Part shown: positions 8,327 to 64,000 of the stretch, piece by piece
Layout of the letters: every line of letters starts with the position of its first letter
Position numbering within the stretch: position 1 is the first letter of the stretch
Assembly: GCF_005144715.1 (NCBI RefSeq)
Contig: NZ_SWKR01000002.1
Coordinates: forward strand, 1,372,146-1,436,145
Direction of reading: 5' to 3'
DNA length: 64,000 nt
Source of the DNA: Sphingomonas baiyangensis
Lineage (GTDB): Bacteria; Pseudomonadota; Alphaproteobacteria; Sphingomonadales; Sphingomonadaceae
Made by a program: the position numbers and the translations under genes
Notes under the pieces: model-generated
What the model was told of the DNA's origin: nothing
The model's input: only the letters and a program-made list of their open reading frames with translations
The model's database searches: none

Positions 8327-9131
8327 CCGCAATGCAGGCCTGCTCGGCCTGACCGCGCTCGCGATGCTGGCGGGTTGCGCCACGACACGCGAGGGCGGCG
8401 CCACCGAACCGCCGCTGGTGGTCGAGCGATATGGCGGCGCGCCGTCGCGCAGCGTCCGCACGCTGATGGTGCTCGTGCACGACGACGATCGAAGCGGCGT
8501 GGCGCCCGACTATGCCGCCTTCGCACGCGCGGCGGTCGCACGCGTGCCCGGCAGCGCGTTCGTGACGGTGCTTCGGCCCGGCTATGGCGACAAGGCGGGT
8601 CGCAGGTCGGCCGGCGAAACCGCCGGCGCGCATGGCAACGGCTATACGCGCGACCGTATCGAGCAGGTCGCTGCATCGATCGAGGTGTTGCGGCGACGCT
8701 ATCCGAACGCGCGCACGGTGCTGATCGGCGATGGCGGTGGCGCAGCGATCGTCGCCAATCTGGCCGGCCTGCGACCGATGCTGGCCGATGCGATGCTGCT
8801 TGCCGCCTGCCCGTGCGCATTGCCCGAATGGCGCACGATGATGGCGAAGACCGACCCCGCCTTTGCGCAACCGGTCCAGAGCCTCGATCCGCTGCAGACG
8901 GTTGGTGGCGTCGCGCCGGGACTGCGTGCGGCGATCGTCGTCGGTGAGGACGACAAGGTCACGCCACCCGCGCTGTCGCGCACCTATGCCGAAGCGCTCG
9001 CGCTGCGCGGCATCGCGACGGAGTTCACGCGGCTGCCGGGTCAGGATCATGAGATCCTCGACGATCCCGTTCTGTTACAGATACTTGCCGAACTGGCTGA
9101 AGCCGTGGCAATGCCTGCCGGGAACATATGA
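8316..9131 (+). CDS. Predicted lipoprotein with alpha/beta-hydrolase fold, nucleophile missing
   Basis: 271 residues. The start ([10 protein letters not shown]) follows an AAGG ribosome-binding site and gives a lipoprotein signal with lipobox LAGC at Cys21, so the protein should be membrane-anchored. The rest reads as a small alpha/beta hydrolase: strand plus oxyanion region (LMVLVHDDD), elbow at residues 138-142, acid site [10 protein letters not shown] (about 210-218) and a histidine at 245 (GQDHEIL). The elbow is GDGGG where active enzymes have GxSxG, so the serine is replaced by glycine. It may be a non-catalytic binding protein. It overlaps coaBC by 11 bases and dut by 4. Confidence 0.85.
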
Positions 9132-56810: not shown

Positions 56811-58667
56811 TCAGGCGGCAAGCTCGTCCTGCGAAAGTTGCGCGGCATCGACCGTCAACACCGCGCTCGCGCCGCGCCCCTGGCCTTCGCTTTCGAGTGC
56901 CAGCGTGCCGCCCATCGCGTTCATCGCGTTGGCGCACCAGTGAAGGCCGAGGCCGCCCGATTTATGCGCGCGCGTAGAGAAGCCGCGCTGGAACAGGCGC
57001 GGCGTCTGCGCTGTCTCGAACCCCTCGCCATCGTCGGTGATGCGGATGCGCGTGCGGCCGTCGTGATCGTCAATGGTGACGGTGATGGTGCCGCCATCGC
57101 GGCCGGCAGCGGCAATCGCTTCGGCGGCGTTGGAGAACAGGTTGCCCACCACCTGGCTCAGGATCACGCGGTTGGCCATCACCCAGTGCGGTTGCGAGGG
57201 GAAGCTGAACGCGATCGAATGGCTGCCCGAATAGCGTGCGATCGTCGCGTTCTGGGCGATGATGTCGGTCACGTCGCAGGCGGCCAGTTGCGGGCGCTCG
57301 TGCGCATCCTCCTGCTGGCGGCCGATGATCTCGAGCACGTGGCGCATCGCCTCGCGGCCGATCTCGAGCTGGCGGCGACGGTCGGCGCGATCGGCGCCTT
57401 CGGCCTCGGCGGCAGCAGCGACGAAGGCGGCAAGCTTCTGGCGACGCACGGGCGGAAGATCATCGCGCGCAAGCTCGGCGACGGCACGGTCCAGCAGCGC
57501 GCGGTCAACGGGCGGCGGGAGAGCCAGCCCCTGCGACAGGATGGTGCTCACCGGATTGAGCGCGTTGCGGACATTGTGCATCACCGCGACCGCAGTTTCG
57601 GAGCGGCCGAGCTTGAACGATTGGACCTCGAGCTGTTCGCGCAGATCCTTCAATTGTCGCAACATCGCGTTGAAGCTGGCGACGAGGCTGCCGATCTCGT
57701 CGTCGCGGCGCTCGTCGGTAAGCGGGAGCATCGCGCCCGATTTGCGCACCTGCTGCATATGTCCTTCGACGCGGCCGAGCGGCTTGAGCACGAGGCTGAT
57801 GATCGTACGCCGCAGCACCACCAGCACGATCATCAGCAGCAGGGTCGATCCGCCGACCGCGAGCAGCAGCATCCGCCGCCCGAGCAGCGAGAGGTCGCGC
57901 GGCACCGCATAGGTGGCGCTCGCGACGGGGCGATCGTCAGCGCCCGATATGGGCACCGCTACGCGAATGCGCGAGGGACCGGCGGCGATCACCGGCGCCG
58001 ATACGCGGTTCGCCACGTCGAGCGCGGCGTCGAGCTGCAACAGCGTGCGCAACTGTTCGGACGTGATGAGGCGCGCCATCACCACATGGCCGCGCGGGTT
58101 GCCGGTGCCGTCGCTGCGTCGCACCTGTGCGACGCCGATCGCGGCGATCCGGTCGCCGAGGCGCGCATAGAAGCTGGCCGAACTGCCGCCTTCGAGCGCG
58201 GCGGCAAGATCGATCCGGTCGATCGCCGCCAGCATTGCGGCGCGCGCGGCGGCATCGTCGGTTTCGCGCGACAGGTCGAGCCAGCGCGCGATGACGACAT
58301 CGCCATCGTTGCGCAGATAGGCCATGCCGTTGATGCCGAGATTGACCATCGCCGAGGTGGCGAAGCTGTCCTGCTCGAACGCGGCATTGGGCGCGCCCAT
58401 ATAGTCGTAGCTCGCGCTCCAGTCGCCATAATCGCGCACCGTGGCCTCGACCTTCGAGGCATATTCGTCGAGCGCCGCGCGCGTGCGTTCGACATGCGCG
58501 TCGACGGCATCGGCTTCGAGCCGGTCGAAGCTGGGCGTGATGATGACCGCAAGCAGCAGCGTGATCGCGATCGCGCCGATCACGCCGACGCCGGTGAGGA
58601 TCAGCACCAGCTTGGCGCCGAGCGAGGCGGGCAGCCTCAGCGCGCGGCGGCGCAGCGACGCGCCCAT
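56811..58667 (-). CDS. Membrane sensor histidine kinase with CHASE4-like domain
   Basis: 618 residues: TM1 (about 18-44), a periplasmic CHASE4-like sensor (about 45-260; RDYGDWSASYDYM is the recognisable motif), TM2 (266-286), HAMP (287-340), an H-box AVMHNVRNALNPVSTIL (His364), and a C-terminal ATPase with the N-box QVVGNLFSNAAEAI, DDGEGF and GGLGLHWCANAMNAMGG. The H-box is of the atypical HNxRNxLNP type. It overlaps the upstream REC-GGDEF-EAL gene (ATGA), so the two are a likely signalling pair. Confidence 0.92.
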   Translation of the reverse strand: MGASLRRRALRLPASLGAKLVLILTGVGVIGAIAITLLLAVIITPSFDRLEADAVDAHVERTRAALDEYASKVEATVRDYGDWSASYDYMGAPNAAFEQDSFATSAMVNLGINGMAYLRNDGDVVIARWLDLSRETDDAAARAAMLAAIDRIDLAAALEGGSSASFYARLGDRIAAIGVAQVRRSDGTGNPRGHVVMARLITSEQLRTLLQLDAALDVANRVSAPVIAAGPSRIRVAVPISGADDRPVASATYAVPRDLSLLGRRMLLLAVGGSTLLLMIVLVVLRRTIISLVLKPLGRVEGHMQQVRKSGAMLPLTDERRDDEIGSLVASFNAMLRQLKDLREQLEVQSFKLGRSETAVAVMHNVRNALNPVSTILSQGLALPPPVDRALLDRAVAELARDDLPPVRRQKLAAFVAAAAEAEGADRADRRRQLEIGREAMRHVLEIIGRQQEDAHERPQLAACDVTDIIAQNATIARYSGSHSIAFSFPSQPHWVMANRVILSQVVGNLFSNAAEAIAAAGRDGGTITVTIDDHDGRTRIRITDDGEGFETAQTPRLFQRGFSTRAHKSGGLGLHWCANAMNAMGGTLALESEGQGRGASAVLTVDAAQLSQDELAA

Positions 58668-60559
58668 CAGCCCTGCGTCCCGTTCCCCGCGACGGGCGCC
58701 GTGCCTTCGTCTTCGTCGACGGCTTCGAGATAGCGTTGCGTCGCGATCACCACCGAATCCTCGGCTTCCATCGGCCGCGCGTAAAAATACCCCTGAAGAT
58801 GGCTGCACCCGGCGACGCGCAACGCCTGGACCTGCGCCTGCGTCTCGACGCCCTCGGCCACGACCTCGAGCCCAAGCGCACGACCCAGATGGATGATCGA
58901 ATGGACGATCGCCGCCGACTCGCGCTCGCGGCCCATGCCGTCGATGAAGCTCTTGTCGATCTTGAGGCAGTCGAGCGCGAACTTGCGGATGTTGTAGAGC
59001 GACGAATAGCCCGTGCCGAAATCGTCGAGTGCGATGCGGAAGCCCATCTGGCGCAGGCGATAGAGGGTGTCGGCGGCGCGCTCGGCATCGTCGAAGATCG
59101 CGGTTTCGGTAATCTCGATCTGGAGGCGCGACGGCGCGATGCCGGCGCGATCGACGCGCTCGACGACATGGCCAACGAAGTTCTGGCGGCGGAACTGGCG
59201 CGGCGAGAAATTGACCGAGACATACTGGCCCGGCCACCGCGCCAGCATCTCGAGCGCCTCGCCCAGCACCCAGTCTCCCAATTCGTGGATGAGGTTCGAT
59301 TCCTCGGCGATGGGGATGAACATGGCAGGCGAGATCGTGCCATATTCGGGACTTACCCAGCGCAGCAACGCCTCGAAGCCCACGACCTCGGCGCCATCGC
59401 GCGCGACGATCGGCTGATAGACCAGCCGCAGTTCGTTATTCGCGATCGCCTCGCTCAGGCCGCCTTCGATGCGGCGGCGGAAGCGGATCGATTCGTCCAT
59501 GCTCTCGTCGAACACGCGCACGATGCCGCGCCCGGCCTTTTTCGCTTCGTTGAGCGCGAGGTCGGCACGACGCATCACGTCGATAGGATCGCGCGGCTCG
59601 CTGCCGTCGGCGATCACCAAGCCGATCGACGCGCTGCCCTGTACCGAATGGCCGAAAACCTTGAAGCTGGTGGCGCAGGCGTGGATCAGCCGCTCGCACG
59701 CCATCACCGCGGCGTCCTCGCCCGGTGTCGGGAACAGGATCGCGAACTCGTCGCCGCCGAGCCGCGCGACCATGCCGCGCTCGGGCACGTGCTCCTGGAG
59801 CAAGGTGCACACCATGCGGATGAGTTCGTCGCCCGCCAGATGGCCGAACGTGTCGTTGACGAGCTTGAAGCGATCGAGATCGATCATCGCCATCGCAAAG
59901 CCCTCGTCGGCGCGTACCCAGCCCTGGAGCGAGCGCAGAAAGGCGAGCCGGTTCGGCGCGTCGGTAAGCGAATCATGATTGGCGAGATGGATCGCCTTCA
60001 TCTCGTTGGCGGCGAGTTCGAGCGTCTGCTCTTCGAGCAGCGCGACCTTGTCGGCGAGATCGGCGCGGGTCGCCGCCAGTTCGCGGTCGATCTGCCAGCG
60101 GTGCGACAGCGCCGAGGCGGTCTGCACCACTTCCTCGACCTCGAAGGGCTTGGCGATGTAGAAGATCTTGTCCGCCGGGCCCGCCACCTTGGCGATTTCA
60201 AGCGGCGAGAAATCGGAAAAGCCTGTGACGATGACGATGTTCACGTCGGGATCGAGCGCGCGGATGCGCTTCGCGGTTTCACGCCCGTCGATGCCGGGCG
60301 GCATCCGCACGTCGATGAAGGCAACGGCGAAGCGGTTTTCGCCGGCGCGCGCGACGATGTCGACCGCTTCGAGGCCTTGCGTGGCGTGCACCAGATCGAA
60401 ACGCGGCGCGGGCGGCGTCGCATCGGGCGGCACATCCTCGTCGCCGAAAAGTTCGGCGGCCATTGCCGAGAGGTCGCCGTCGTCGCCCGGACGGGCGGCG
60501 AAGCACTGCCGATAGGATTCGTGCATCCCCGGTTCGTCATCCACGATCAGAATGCGCAC
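58667..60559 (-). CDS. Response regulator with REC, GGDEF and EAL domains
   Basis: 630 residues from a GTG (VRILIVDDEPGMHES) preceded by AGGGGAAG. The receiver (1-150) has the acidic pair Asp7/Asp8, phospho-acceptor Asp83 (AFIDVRMPPGIDG), Thr112 and Lys137, with an unusual insert of about 30 residues (26-52) after the first helix. A coiled linker precedes a GGDEF domain with intact RLGGDEFA (268-272), then an EAL domain with FEALLRW (396-398), DDFGTGYSSL and AEGVET. Both c-di-GMP synthesis and hydrolysis motifs are intact. It is coupled to the CHASE4 kinase downstream. Confidence 0.94.
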   Translation of the reverse strand: MRILIVDDEPGMHESYRQCFAARPGDDGDLSAMAAELFGDEDVPPDATPPAPRFDLVHATQGLEAVDIVARAGENRFAVAFIDVRMPPGIDGRETAKRIRALDPDVNIVIVTGFSDFSPLEIAKVAGPADKIFYIAKPFEVEEVVQTASALSHRWQIDRELAATRADLADKVALLEEQTLELAANEMKAIHLANHDSLTDAPNRLAFLRSLQGWVRADEGFAMAMIDLDRFKLVNDTFGHLAGDELIRMVCTLLQEHVPERGMVARLGGDEFAILFPTPGEDAAVMACERLIHACATSFKVFGHSVQGSASIGLVIADGSEPRDPIDVMRRADLALNEAKKAGRGIVRVFDESMDESIRFRRRIEGGLSEAIANNELRLVYQPIVARDGAEVVGFEALLRWVSPEYGTISPAMFIPIAEESNLIHELGDWVLGEALEMLARWPGQYVSVNFSPRQFRRQNFVGHVVERVDRAGIAPSRLQIEITETAIFDDAERAADTLYRLRQMGFRIALDDFGTGYSSLYNIRKFALDCLKIDKSFIDGMGRERESAAIVHSIIHLGRALGLEVVAEGVETQAQVQALRVAGCSHLQGYFYARPMEAEDSVVIATQRYLEAVDEDEGTAPVAGNGTQG

Positions 60560-60715
60560 GCGGTCTTCCCCTTGGCTGCCGATTGCCAAGGCGTAACCGG
60601 GCAGGGTTAAAGCGGTGTAAACATGGCGACCCCCGAGAAGCTTATAGACTGCGTCCGGAACGGCGCGTTTTCTCTCCACAATCGCAGTTTCGCTGCCTAA
60701 GCCTTGCCTGGTTTG

Positions 60716-60731
60716 TTGTATCATCATGCAA
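60716..60731. promoter_or_regulatory. Putative MarR operator before marR
   Basis: TTGTATCATCATGCAA, an imperfect palindrome with TTGnAT half-sites 7 bases before the MarR-family start codon. It agrees with the site at 61258-61275 in 11 of 16 positions when their TTG ends are aligned, which suggests autoregulation by the MarR protein. Confidence 0.5.
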
Positions 60732-60738
60732 GGCCCGC

Positions 60739-61212
60739 ATGTCCAAGCGCACCGTCTACGACCCCACCGATCCGGCTTTCCGGCTGGAAAACTCGCCCTT
60801 CTACCTCATCGCGCACGCCGATTTCCGCTATCACCAGCAGATGGACGAAGCGCTTCAGCACCACGGCGTGTCGAAGCCGATCTACCGGATCATGACCGTG
60901 CTGCGCGAGCGCCAGCCGGTAAGCATCGGGACGCTTGCGGACGTCGCGCTGACCAAACGATCGACGGTGAGCCGCATCGTCGACCGCATGGTCGACCAGG
61001 GATTGGCAGCCACCGCGCCGAACGATGCCGACAGCCGCATTACCGACGTGACGCTGACCGACGCCGGGCAACGGACGCTCGACAAGCTCACGCCGGTGGT
61101 CGGCGAGCAACTCGACCGCGCCTTTGCCGGCATCGCCGAAGCGGACATGACGGCGCTGCTTTCCACGTTGCGGCGCATCAGCAGCAATCTCGCGAAGGCG
61201 GACCGAGGCTGA
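60739..61212 (+). CDS. MarR-family transcriptional regulator
   Basis: 157 residues; the start is MSKRTVYDPTDPAFRLENSP, with AAGG just upstream. A winged helix-turn-helix is in the middle (ISKP-like GVSKPIYRIMTVLRERQ, IGTLADVALTKRSTVSRIVDRMV, wing NDADSRITDVTLTDAG). MarR proteins typically repress nearby catabolic genes and are released by aromatic ligands. The gene lies 104 bases before the cyclase-family gene. A palindrome overlaps its own translation start region. Confidence 0.92.
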   Translation: MSKRTVYDPTDPAFRLENSPFYLIAHADFRYHQQMDEALQHHGVSKPIYRIMTVLRERQPVSIGTLADVALTKRSTVSRIVDRMVDQGLAATAPNDADSRITDVTLTDAGQRTLDKLTPVVGEQLDRAFAGIAEADMTALLSTLRRISSNLAKADRG

Positions 61213-61257
61213 GGCCGCACACATGATCGTGCGCCCCGGGGGCGGCGTGCGCATCAA

Positions 61258-61275
61258 TACTTGCATCTGCACGTA
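61258..61275. promoter_or_regulatory. Putative MarR operator before the cyclase-family gene
   Basis: TACTTGCATCTGCACGTA: 8-base arms (TACTTGCA and TGCACGTA) that pair with one mismatch around TC. It is 42 bases before the hydrolase start, and similar to the site in front of the MarR gene. A shared regulator is likely. Confidence 0.55.
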
Positions 61276-61316
61276 ATCGGCGTCAGGATCCTGTCTCGCT
61301 CGAAAAGGAGAGCCGC

Positions 61317-62096
61317 ATGACCGCCCAGACGCTGCACCAGCTTGCCGCCGGCATCGCCAGCGGTTCGATCCGCACGATCGACCTTACGCAGACGCTCTCG
61401 CCAGATACCCCCACGTTGATGCTGCCGCCCGAGTTCGGCCAGTGCGCCGCGTTCACGATCGAGGAGATCAGCCGCTACGACGAGCGCGGCGTAGCCTGGT
61501 ACTGGAACAATTTCTCGGTCGGCGAGCATACCGGTACGCATTTCGACGCGCCGGTACACTGGGTGACGGGCAAGGACCTGCCCAACAACACGCTCGACAC
61601 GATCGATCCTGCCGCCTTCGTGGCGCCGGCCGTGGTGATCGATGTGAGCGGCGAGTGCGCCGCCAATCCCGATTACCTCCTCACCGTTGCCGATATCGAG
61701 GCGTGGGAAGCCGAACATGGCCGCATCCCGCCACGCTCGTGGGTGCTGCTGCGCACCGACTGGTCGAAGCGGTCGGTCGAAGAGTATGTCAACCGCCGCG
61801 AGGATGGCGCGCACACGCCGGGGCCATCGGTCGAGGCCGTCCGCTTCCTCGTCGAGGATCGCGACGCGCACGGCTTCGGCGTCGAGACGATCGGTACCGA
61901 TGCCGGGCAGGCGCATCTGCTCGATCCGCCCTACCCCGCCCATGCCATGTTCCACGGCGCCGGTCGCTATGGCCTGCAATGCCTCCAGAACCTCGATCAG
62001 TTGCCGGCAACGGGCAGCGTGGTGATCGCCACCCCGCTCAAGATCGAGGGCGGATCGGGCAGCCCCTTGCGCGTGCTCGCGCTCGTCGCAGACTGA
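61317..62096 (+). CDS. Cyclase-family metal-dependent hydrolase (kynurenine formamidase/isatin hydrolase-like)
   Basis: 259 residues; ATG preceded by AAAGGAGAG. The metal-binding motif HTGTHFDAPVH (71-81) is the HxGTHxDxPxH signature of the cyclase family, which includes kynurenine formamidase and isatin hydrolase (Mn2+). ETIGTDAGQAHLL and HGAGRYGLQCLQNL occur in the second half. The neighbouring indolepyruvate oxidoreductase points to an indolic or aryl-amide substrate. This is inference. Confidence 0.9.
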   Translation: MTAQTLHQLAAGIASGSIRTIDLTQTLSPDTPTLMLPPEFGQCAAFTIEEISRYDERGVAWYWNNFSVGEHTGTHFDAPVHWVTGKDLPNNTLDTIDPAAFVAPAVVIDVSGECAANPDYLLTVADIEAWEAEHGRIPPRSWVLLRTDWSKRSVEEYVNRREDGAHTPGPSVEAVRFLVEDRDAHGFGVETIGTDAGQAHLLDPPYPAHAMFHGAGRYGLQCLQNLDQLPATGSVVIATPLKIEGGSGSPLRVLALVAD

Positions 62097-62100
62097 GCGC

Positions 62101-64000
62101 GTGGCCGAGCGATCGTTCGCGGCCGAAGTCGAGCAACTGCGCATCGGCGCGGGCGAGACGTTTCATGGCGAGGGCATCCTGGCCGTCACCAAGGCGCTGC
62201 TGCAATCGGGCGTCGCCTATGTCGGCGGCTATCAGGGATCGCCGATCAGCCACCTGATGGACGTGTTCGCCGACGCCAACGACCTGATGGCCGAGCTGGG
62301 CGTGCATTTCGAGGCGAGCGCGAGCGAGGCGACGGCGGCGGCGATGCTCGCGGCTTCGGTCAACTATCCGCTGCGCGGTGCCGTCGCATGGAAATCGGTG
62401 GTCGGCACCAATGTCGCCTCCGATGCGCTCTCCAACGTGGCCTCGGGCGGCGTGACGGGCGGCGCGCTGGTGATCCTCGGTGAGGATTATGGCGAAGGCT
62501 CGTCGATCATGCAGGAGCGCACGCACGCCTTCGCGATGAAGTCGCAGATGTGGCTGCTCGATCCGCGGCCCGATCTGGGGCTGATGGTCGACATGGTCGA
62601 GCAGGGCTTCCGCCTGTCCGAAGCCTCTGCCACGCCGGTGATGCTCGAACTGCGCGTGCGGGCATGCCACATGACGGGCAGCTTCGTCGCGCGCGACAAT
62701 CGTCGTCCGCCGATGACGGTGGGCGAGGCGGCGGCCAATCCGGTACGCGACACCGACCGCATCGTGCTGCCGCCGGCCAATTTCCTGCACGAACACGAGA
62801 AGATCGAGCAACGGTGGCCGGCTGCGATCGACTATGTACGCGACGCGAAGCTCAACGAACGCTTCGGGCCTGACGAGGATGACATCGGCATCATCGTGCA
62901 GGGCGGGCTGTTCAATACGCTCAATCGCGCGCTCGAGCTGATCGGGTTATCGAACGCATGGGGCGACACCGCACTGCCCGTGCACGTTCTCAACTGCGTC
63001 TATCCGCTCGTGCCCGACGAGATCGCAGCCTTTTGTGCGGGAAAGCACGCGGTGCTGATCGTCGAGGAAGGCCAGCCCGAATTCATCGAGCACGAGCTCA
63101 ACACGCTGGTGCGGCGCGCCGACCTTCAAACGGCGATCGTCGGCAAGGCAGTGCTGCCGCGCGCGGGCGAATATACCGGACAGGTGTTGCGCGAGGGGCT
63201 GGCGAAGTTCCTGCGCGAATGGGCGCCCGATCGCGCGCCCGTCGAAACGCCGCTTGCCGCCCCCGCCGTCACGCCGGCGATGGTCCCGCAGCGACCGGCG
63301 GGGTTCTGCACCGGCTGCCCCGAGCGACCGATCTTCTCGGCCATGAAGCTGGTGCAGCGCGAGCTGGGCGAGTTCCACGTATCGGCCGATATCGGCTGCC
63401 ATCTGTTCTCGATCCTGCCGCCGTTCCACATCGGCAACACGACGATGGGATATGGCCTGGGCAGCGCGGGAGCCTCGGCGTTCAAGCCTGCCGGCAAGCG
63501 CGCGATCGCGATGATGGGCGATGGCGGCTTCTGGCACAACGGCCTCACCTCGGGCATCGGCAACGCGGTGTTCAACAAGGACGACACGCTCACCATCATC
63601 GTCGACAATGGCTATTCGGCGGCGACCGGCGGGCAGGACATTCCGTCGTCCAAGGCGTTCAACAAGGCGCGCGTCACCAACAACCCCATCGAGCGCGCGG
63701 TGCGTGGCGTCGGCGTAGGCTGGGCGCGGACGATGACGCGCACCTATGACGTGGGCGGCATGCGCGACGCCATCCGCGACGCAGTGACCAGTCCCGAAAA
63801 GGGTCCGAAGGTGCTGATCGCGCAGTCAGAATGCCAGCTCAACCGCCAGCGACGCGTGAAGCCGGCGATGGCGAAAGCGATCAAGGCCGGCAATCGCGTG
63901 GTGCGCGAGCGCTTCGGCGTCGATCCCGATACGTGCACCGGCGATCATGCTTGCATCCGCCTTTCGGGCTGCCCCAGCCTGACGATCCGCGACAATCCCG
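62101..64000 (+). CDS. Indolepyruvate:ferredoxin oxidoreductase, alpha-type subunit (3' end outside window)
   Basis: 633 residues visible, starting from a GTG 4 bases after the cyclase stop and open to the window end. An N-terminal TPP-enzyme pyrimidine domain (VGGYQGSPISHLMDVF, FEASASEATAAAMLA), a middle domain with VIVEEGQPEF-like contact (VLIVEEGQPEFIEHEL), GFCTGCPERPIF, the TPP-binding MMGDGGFWHNG (about 470) and, at the very end, the first cysteines of a ferredoxin-type cluster (CTGDHACIRLSGCP). This matches IorA-like enzymes that oxidatively decarboxylate aryl-pyruvates. A gamma/beta subunit may be fused or follow. Confidence 0.9.
   Translation, partial: MAERSFAAEVEQLRIGAGETFHGEGILAVTKALLQSGVAYVGGYQGSPISHLMDVFADANDLMAELGVHFEASASEATAAAMLAASVNYPLRGAVAWKSVVGTNVASDALSNVASGGVTGGALVILGEDYGEGSSIMQERTHAFAMKSQMWLLDPRPDLGLMVDMVEQGFRLSEASATPVMLELRVRACHMTGSFVARDNRRPPMTVGEAAANPVRDTDRIVLPPANFLHEHEKIEQRWPAAIDYVRDAKLNERFGPDEDDIGIIVQGGLFNTLNRALELIGLSNAWGDTALPVHVLNCVYPLVPDEIAAFCAGKHAVLIVEEGQPEFIEHELNTLVRRADLQTAIVGKAVLPRAGEYTGQVLREGLAKFLREWAPDRAPVETPLAAPAVTPAMVPQRPAGFCTGCPERPIFSAMKLVQRELGEFHVSADIGCHLFSILPPFHIGNTTMGYGLGSAGASAFKPAGKRAIAMMGDGGFWHNGLTSGIGNAVFNKDDTLTIIVDNGYSAATGGQDIPSSKAFNKARVTNNPIERAVRGVGVGWARTMTRTYDVGGMRDAIRDAVTSPEKGPKVLIAQSECQLNRQRRVKPAMAKAIKAGNRVVRERFGVDPDTCTGDHACIRLSGCPSLTIRDNP

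Follow-up and report, generated by a model that had tools for sequence, protein, structure and literature searches.

A predicted isatin hydrolase-iorAB operon in Sphingomonas baiyangensis as a probable ligase-free entry to aerobic 2-aminobenzoyl-CoA degradation

Auxin degradation loci are among the closest described systems to the genes considered here, which lie at the end of a 64,000-nucleotide stretch of Sphingomonas baiyangensis DNA (G000:C2:1372146-1436145 of a two-contig, 3.27-Mb genome; this whole stretch is called the window) and encode a MarR-family regulator, a cyclase-family hydrolase and IorA, the alpha subunit of a 2-oxoacid oxidoreductase. In the accessible parts of the two papers describing them (PMC9613470, PMC12633357), the iad loci of Variovorax and Bradyrhizobium also hold iorA and iorB, two MarR genes and IadI, a hydrolase that carries a kynurenine formamidase annotation; the end product published for these loci is free anthranilate, and no role is given there to IadA/IadB. 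An anaerobic route from indole-3-acetate (IAA) to 2-aminobenzoyl-CoA in Aromatoleum appears in an accessible section of the first of these papers (PMC9613470). In the known aerobic pathway, that of Azoarcus evansii, an AMP-forming ligase activates 2-aminobenzoate in the first step (PMC4539516).

The window locus is probably an entry module of aerobic isatin catabolism in which IorAB takes the place of that ligase and a second MarR protein encoded just past the window end, MarR2, acts as the repressor. Isatinate is 2-aminophenylglyoxylate, a 2-oxo acid. Isatin hydrolase would open isatin to isatinate, and IorAB, with CoA, would carry out the oxidative decarboxylation of isatinate to 2-aminobenzoyl-CoA, CO2 and reduced acceptor. 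IorAB would in this way replace the ATP-dependent anthranilate-CoA ligase and yield the same CoA ester that the ligase would form from anthranilate, and a separate AbmA operon of the same genome would degrade the 2-aminobenzoyl-CoA. MarR2 would most likely repress the isatin hydrolase-iorAB genes from a site at 61259-61274 and be released by an indolic acid or a CoA ester. The chemistry after isatin resembles the 2-aminobenzoyl-CoA route, not one through free anthranilate or catechol. The gene families, the conservation of the operator and the exclusion between ligase and iorAB are observed, while both enzyme activities, the inducer and the source of isatin enter this scheme as predictions. 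The features of the locus are as follows.

60739..61212, + strand: MarR1, MarR-family regulator, 157 aa (PF12802 and PF01047 above cut-off; nearest solved relative P. putida IacR, 7KUA, E 1e-23)
61317..62096, + strand: isatin hydrolase, type A by sequence, 259 aa (PF04199, E 1.3e-43; phmmer match to 5NNA, E 7e-114)
62101..64000, + strand, cut by the window end: iorA, alpha subunit of a thiamine diphosphate (ThDP)/iron-sulfur (Fe-S) 2-oxoacid:acceptor oxidoreductase, isatinate being the predicted substrate (TIGR03336, TPP_enzyme_C)
61259..61274, no strand: operator-like palindrome ACTTGCATCTGCACGT, putative MarR2 site (motif from 71 upstream regions; 24.8 bits; tracks MarR2 relatives)
60716..60731, no strand: TTGTATCATCATGCAA, first palindrome of the first-pass annotation, unsupported as an operator (below 8 bits with the conserved matrix; palindromicity within chance; not in relatives)

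MarR1, the cyclase and iorA are all on the + strand, with 4 bases between the cyclase and iorA, which starts with GTG at 62101. The first-pass annotation had reported this adjacent trio, an HxGTHxDxPxH motif in the cyclase and a third gene cut by the window end, and these claims were borne out by family matches (PF01047/PF12802, PF04199) and open reading frames (ORFs), by the motif HTGTHFDAPVH, and by the whole iorA, which reaches 64224 and encodes 707 aa. Surroundings were taken from fetched pieces of about 20 kb each, some shorter where a contig ends, that carry L numbers (L003 and L004 are the surroundings of the window genes); genes outside annotated records were ORFs called by codon-position GC, and cluster names such as SDR, RidA, FAH and thiolase were assigned from reading the sequences, with family scans for part of the proteins only. 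Beyond the window in L003, the end of iorA is followed after 9 bases by iorB (491 aa) and then by MarR2, which has a probable GTG start at L003:7899 and ends at 8375.

By sequence, the cyclase at 61317-62096 is an isatin hydrolase, and hydrolase activity is predicted because it matches solved structures and carries three signatures. In phmmer searches it matched the solved isatin hydrolases over nearly its full length: 5NNA, with 161 of 256 aligned residues identical, 5NNB (E at most 2e-111), 5NMP (2e-111) and 4J0N (5e-79). These matches scored 268-383 bits, compared with 103 for the next solved protein, 8F9X of the cyclase family, and 26-28 for kynurenine formamidases, for which E was only about 1e-5. 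The signatures listed in the available part of PMC6117287 are HxG[T/A]HxDxPxH, WxW/FxW and GLQC/GLAS; the cyclase has the metal motif at residues 71-81, the aromatic pocket motif WYW at residue 61, and GLQC at residue 219 in the place of the KynB motif I(L/I)E, which it lacks. It also fails the kynurenine formamidase model TIGR03035 (28.5 bits; cut-off 223). By hand count, and assuming that 5NNA follows LaIHA numbering with an offset of 7, Asp195 and His209 align with the LaIHA proton-transfer residues Asp193 and His207. The link to isatin hydrolase that had been proposed from cyclase family membership was therefore well placed.

The safe reading of IorA and IorB is that they form a ThDP/Fe-S 2-oxoacid oxidoreductase whose substrate is not given by sequence. 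This assignment is made because the GDGG of the ThDP site is invariant in 22 aligned relatives, as are seven C-terminal Fe-S cysteines in those 22 and in 72 relatives. IorA also matches TPP_enzyme_C, and IorB, the partner gamma subunit, contains POR and DUF6537 domains and scores 663 bits with NF006179 (cut-off 348). Against TIGR03336, the equivalog model for the alpha subunit of indolepyruvate ferredoxin oxidoreductase, the full IorA protein reached 279 bits, well under the cut-off of 650.9. The AlphaFold model of IorA had a pLDDT of 66, and the Foldseek matches, most of them ThDP enzymes, superposed poorly (for the PFOR structure 7PLM, 5.4 A over 373 columns); because of this modest confidence and poor superposition, little weight was placed on structure. 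Work on Variovorax bears on the substrate. A compound with the formula of isatinic acid (C8H7NO3) is reported to accumulate only in strains overexpressing iadC-K2 (PMC12633357), the deletion background is genes 77-53, and iadA is gene 72 (PMC9613470); since that deletion spans gene 72, the iadC-K2 strains should lack iadA. Accumulation of C8H7NO3 without iadA would fit consumption of isatinate by IadAB.

The second half of the proposed pathway lies elsewhere in the genome. AbmA here refers to the fused monooxygenase/reductase family NF006101, which the National Center for Biotechnology Information (NCBI) names salicylyl-CoA 5-hydroxylase. An AbmA-like gene at G000:C2:789906, about 636 kb from the window genes, scores 1277 bits with this model (cut-off 1078), is 74% identical to that of L041, and is followed by genes for SDR, ECH, acyl-CoA dehydrogenase, thioesterase, RidA and a second acyl-CoA dehydrogenase. 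The operon holds no MarR gene, and no AMP-ligase signature was detected in the 28 kb fetched around it. A close homologue of the anthranilate-CoA ligase family is absent from the genome, where the best match has 31% identity and 116 bits. Tryptophan 2,3-dioxygenase was considered as a feeder and rejected because the gene is absent from the genome.

Replacement of the ligase is supported by an exclusion pattern between the ligase and iorAB at these operons. In a search of 289 genomes of the class for NF006101, 52 pieces were fetched, and 31 of them together with this genome gave 32 ECH-type AbmA loci; the remaining 21 lacked the ECH marker and did not enter the count. In 26 of the 32, a ligase lies within 6 kb of ECH and on its strand; all 26 ligases belong to one family, and the one member tested has the anthranilate-CoA ligase 4WV3 as its best solved relative. 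In all 26 of the ligase-bearing pieces, iorA, iorB and isatin hydrolase had no match at any reported score. Of the six ligase-free loci, three (L122, L157, L162) carry iorAB alongside, one (L102) is this genome and two (L123, L129) are short contigs. Fisher p was 0.004 for all 32 loci and 0.001 without L123 and L129. A converse set was built from 80 IorA relatives in named genomes, mostly sphingomonads, and every count out of 80 in this text refers to these best 80 of at least 585. AbmA or ECH occurs in 44 of these iorA-centred pieces, and the ligase family in three of the 44; other AMP-ligases are present in L018 and L062.

Gene context in other genomes connects the two operons. Among the 80 iorA pieces iorB was always present, isatin hydrolase was present in 64, and at least one of AbmA, ECH and a gentisate-type dioxygenase was present in 48. 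Within the genus, 9 of 61 genomes, counting this one, have an isatin hydrolase relative with an identity of 63% or more. Eight same-genus pieces from seven genomes were compared, and in six (L104-L109) genes of the AbmA set lie together with isatin hydrolase-iorAB, L105 and L106 showing only the later genes of the AbmA operon because the piece starts inside it; the remaining two, L110 and L111, are iad-like. The gentisate-type gene was found in 17 of the 80 pieces. At L018:1000-8431 and similar places, a gentisate-type dioxygenase, FAH hydrolase, nitrilase and maleate-isomerase-like protein lie beside AbmA, thioesterase and iorAB. Loci of this type look like a route for ring cleavage of 5-hydroxyanthranilate that would run through maleamylpyruvate, maleamate and maleate. 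Separately, four Polaromonas pieces (L066, L068, L069, L072) have iorAB and no isatin hydrolase in the piece, and the L068 neighbours were read as LysR and TRAP-transporter genes.

These data also lean, with somewhat less assurance than for the window locus itself, toward a general function for the family. IorAB would be a CoA-acylating, decarboxylating isatinate:ferredoxin oxidoreductase that gives an ATP-free entrance to anthraniloyl-CoA degradation in Sphingomonadales, other Alphaproteobacteria and some Actinobacteria, and would also supply the missing function of iadA/iadB; part of the loci would continue through 5-hydroxyanthranilate to the gentisate-type dioxygenase, FAH hydrolase, nitrilase-type amidase and maleate-isomerase-like enzyme. 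In the open-licence literature no report was found of isatinate conversion to anthraniloyl-CoA, nor of isatin hydrolase paired with a ferredoxin oxidoreductase.

Regulation was approached through the palindromes, two similar copies of which the first-pass annotation had placed in front of the first two genes. A motif, ACTTGCATATGCAAGT, was learned by expectation-maximisation from the 71 regions upstream of isatin hydrolase genes and was present in 43 of them (posterior >0.9), mostly about 45-90 bases before the start codon. With a matrix of 36 sites (from the 43, the window site and six weaker sites were left out), the site at 61259-61274 scored its 24.8 bits while the next best in the 64 kb scored 11.5, and five shuffles of the window, a crude control that moves dinucleotide blocks, gave one or two sites of at least 10 bits each. 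It is this conservation that sets the site apart, whereas the bare palindromicity of both sites is unremarkable (69% and 37% of 300 random 122-bp window pieces score equal or better). The palindrome at 60716-60731 was rejected as a twin of the conserved site on its score with the matrix; no counterpart was seen by eye upstream of MarR1 relatives, and an exact match occurs in only 4 of 179 fetched loci, all at this same place. It overlaps the start of an ORF of response regulator-GGDEF-EAL type (58667-60727, - strand) that is divergent from MarR1. The idea that the AbmA operon of this genome is preceded by the same operator was likewise rejected, as no site exceeds 11.2 bits in L102/L103.

MarR2 most likely binds the putative operator at 61259-61274, because the motif tracks MarR2 relatives and sits between a divergent MarR gene and isatin hydrolase. 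A MarR2 relative of at least 140 bits, a limit chosen after seeing the scores, was present at 34 of 38 loci with the motif compared with 1 of 50 without it (88 loci, including two apparent same-genus duplicates, L106 of L031 and L108 of L035). With the limit at 90 bits the counts were 35 of 38 and 13 of 50. At many loci the MarR2-type gene and isatin hydrolase point away from each other, and the motif lies in the gap. MarR1 was rejected as the regulator of this site, since seven distinct loci that have a MarR1 relative (66-67% identity) and no MarR2 relative of at least 140 bits have no 16-bit site (L007-L011, L031 and L105, L106 being a duplicate of L031; the best site in L007 has 15.5 bits); loci with relatives of both (L005, L006, L012, L014) have the operator site. 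The earlier idea of a MarR-controlled start is thus upheld insofar as a putative conserved operator precedes the cyclase, but that operator tracks MarR2 beyond the window and not the MarR that had been named. Among solved structures, P. putida IacR (7KUA) is closest to both MarR proteins and further MarRs of auxin loci from the same paper come next, which makes an indolic acid a plausible ligand. In a comparison with the IAA-contacting residues of the auxin MarRs (IadR/IacR), with residue offsets assumed, MarR1 Arg50 aligns with MarR_73 Arg46 and Tyr49 with the adjacent Trp45, and MarR2 keeps Trp-Arg relative to 7KUA.

Several results weigh against the proposed pathway. The open-licence literature yielded no assay in which a member of this IorAB family was given isatinate. 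PMC12633357 reports that a Variovorax mutant deleted for the locus regains anthranilate with the iadC-K2 region, which means that isatinate also has another route. The exclusion is thin when counted by family label (p 0.016), L074, L075 and L081 hold iorAB plus the ligase, and four of the 26 ligase-bearing pieces (L124, L135, L146, L152) are shorter than 15 kb, so that iorAB could lie off the piece. Exclusion of ligase and iorA across whole genomes was considered and rejected: of 25 genomes with a ligase-bearing operon, 13 carry a strong iorA homologue at another place, and the exclusion therefore holds per operon and not per genome. An isatin hydrolase relative (at least 62% identity) in 3 of these 25 genomes was also counted on this side. 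The genomes behind L157 and L162 gave no isatin hydrolase match, and 16 of the 80 iorA pieces, including the four from Polaromonas in another context, have none, so the IorAB family may take other 2-oxo acids. Finally, the NF006101 match at C2:789906 leaves salicylyl-CoA and 2-aminobenzoyl-CoA undistinguished as substrates.

It is unlikely that the locus is instead a fragment of an iad-type auxin pathway, with IAA as substrate and inducer and isatin hydrolase and IorAB catalysing lower steps. This would agree with the standing of iorA/iorB as iad markers (PMC9613470, in its accessible part), with fragmentary iad clusters described in Sphingomonas and Sphingopyxis (PMC11630574, likewise), with the co-occurrence of isatin hydrolase, iorAB, an AMP-ligase and presumed thiolases in L059, L061 and L073, and with same-genus L110 (iorAB, ligase, isatin hydrolase) and L111 (ligase, isatin hydrolase). 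However, no AMP-ligase signature is present in the 35 kb around the window genes in L003/L004, and in close relatives these genes are tied to the 2-aminobenzoyl-CoA set instead. There is also no Rieske-type oxygenase near the window genes, and a whole-genome Ring_hydroxyl_A (PF00848) search found two proteins, both elsewhere, one without a recognised partner gene and one benA-like beside benzoylformate decarboxylase. The latter pair is at L113:6756-9661 (C2 about 931755-934660), where benzoylformate decarboxylase (779 bits, cut-off 493) adjoins the benA-like Rieske alpha, which is below the benA cut-off. The first-pass annotation had looked to downstream sequence for iad/iac-like oxygenases, and no iad-like one follows, with iacA-type genes not searched for. 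Its comparison with MarR-regulated IAA clusters was sound, given the iad marker status of iorA/iorB and the IacR-like MarRs, and its reading of indolic catabolism was largely right, although IAA itself is unsupported.

Quite improbable is the view that IorAB acts on a different aromatic 2-oxo acid and is only loosely associated with isatin hydrolase. EdcC, which carries an indolepyruvate ferredoxin oxidoreductase annotation, has a product of estrogen ring cleavage as its substrate (PMC7793797), and the Polaromonas iorAB pieces and the L157 and L162 genomes lack isatin hydrolase; against this stand the 64 of 80 iorA pieces with isatin hydrolase, the 4-base spacing from iorA here, and the exclusion of the ligase at 2-aminobenzoyl-CoA-type operons. 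Very improbable is a cyclase acting as kynurenine formamidase or another amidohydrolase with IorAB oxidising arylpyruvates made from amino acids by the neighbouring peptidase and DAO-type oxidase, since, although S9, DAO, BASS and DUF3830 genes accompany the operon in L005, L006 and L014 (minus S9 in L105 and L106), the signature and both score comparisons given above favour isatin hydrolase, the genome lacks tryptophan 2,3-dioxygenase and IorA is far under the TIGR03336 cut-off.

Those neighbouring genes lie on the opposite strand after MarR2 (L003:8387-13348) and encode a DAO-type oxidoreductase, a BASS transporter, a DUF3830 protein and an S9 peptidase. Relatives of Sphingopyxis/Sphingomonas type have, in addition to these, genes for two DUF885 proteins, one M24 peptidase, one amidohydrolase and one TPR/2OG-oxygenase protein. 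One guess is that this gene set feeds a peptide or amide conjugate into the pathway.

If the isatin-to-2-aminobenzoyl-CoA pathway is correct, one reaction would explain both what becomes of isatinate in aerobic bacteria and what iorA/iorB do in loci for auxin degradation, and free anthranilate would be bypassed with the saving of one ATP-consuming activation. This bears on the removal of indole signals by plant-associated bacteria. Compared with the known systems, the window locus differs from the iad locus in having no IadDE-like oxygenase and no AMP-ligase (iadF-type acyl-CoA synthetase) near it. The genome has the fused monooxygenase/reductase and beta-oxidation-type genes in common with the A. 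evansii pathway, as given in the available part of PMC4539516; unlike that pathway, no anthranilate-CoA ligase was found here and the CoA ester is predicted to come from isatinate. EdcC of Novosphingobium/Caenibius tardaugens is, in the accessible text of PMC7793797, an aerobic sphingomonad protein of the IOR family that decarboxylates a 2-oxo acid with CoA ligation proposed; its substrate, in estrogen degradation, differs from that predicted for IorA. The cyclase shares its metal, proton-transfer and pocket motifs with isatin hydrolase A (5NNA, 5NNB) and the Ralstonia-type enzyme (5NMP), and differs from them in that its activity is a predicted one and its gene is in an operon with iorAB.

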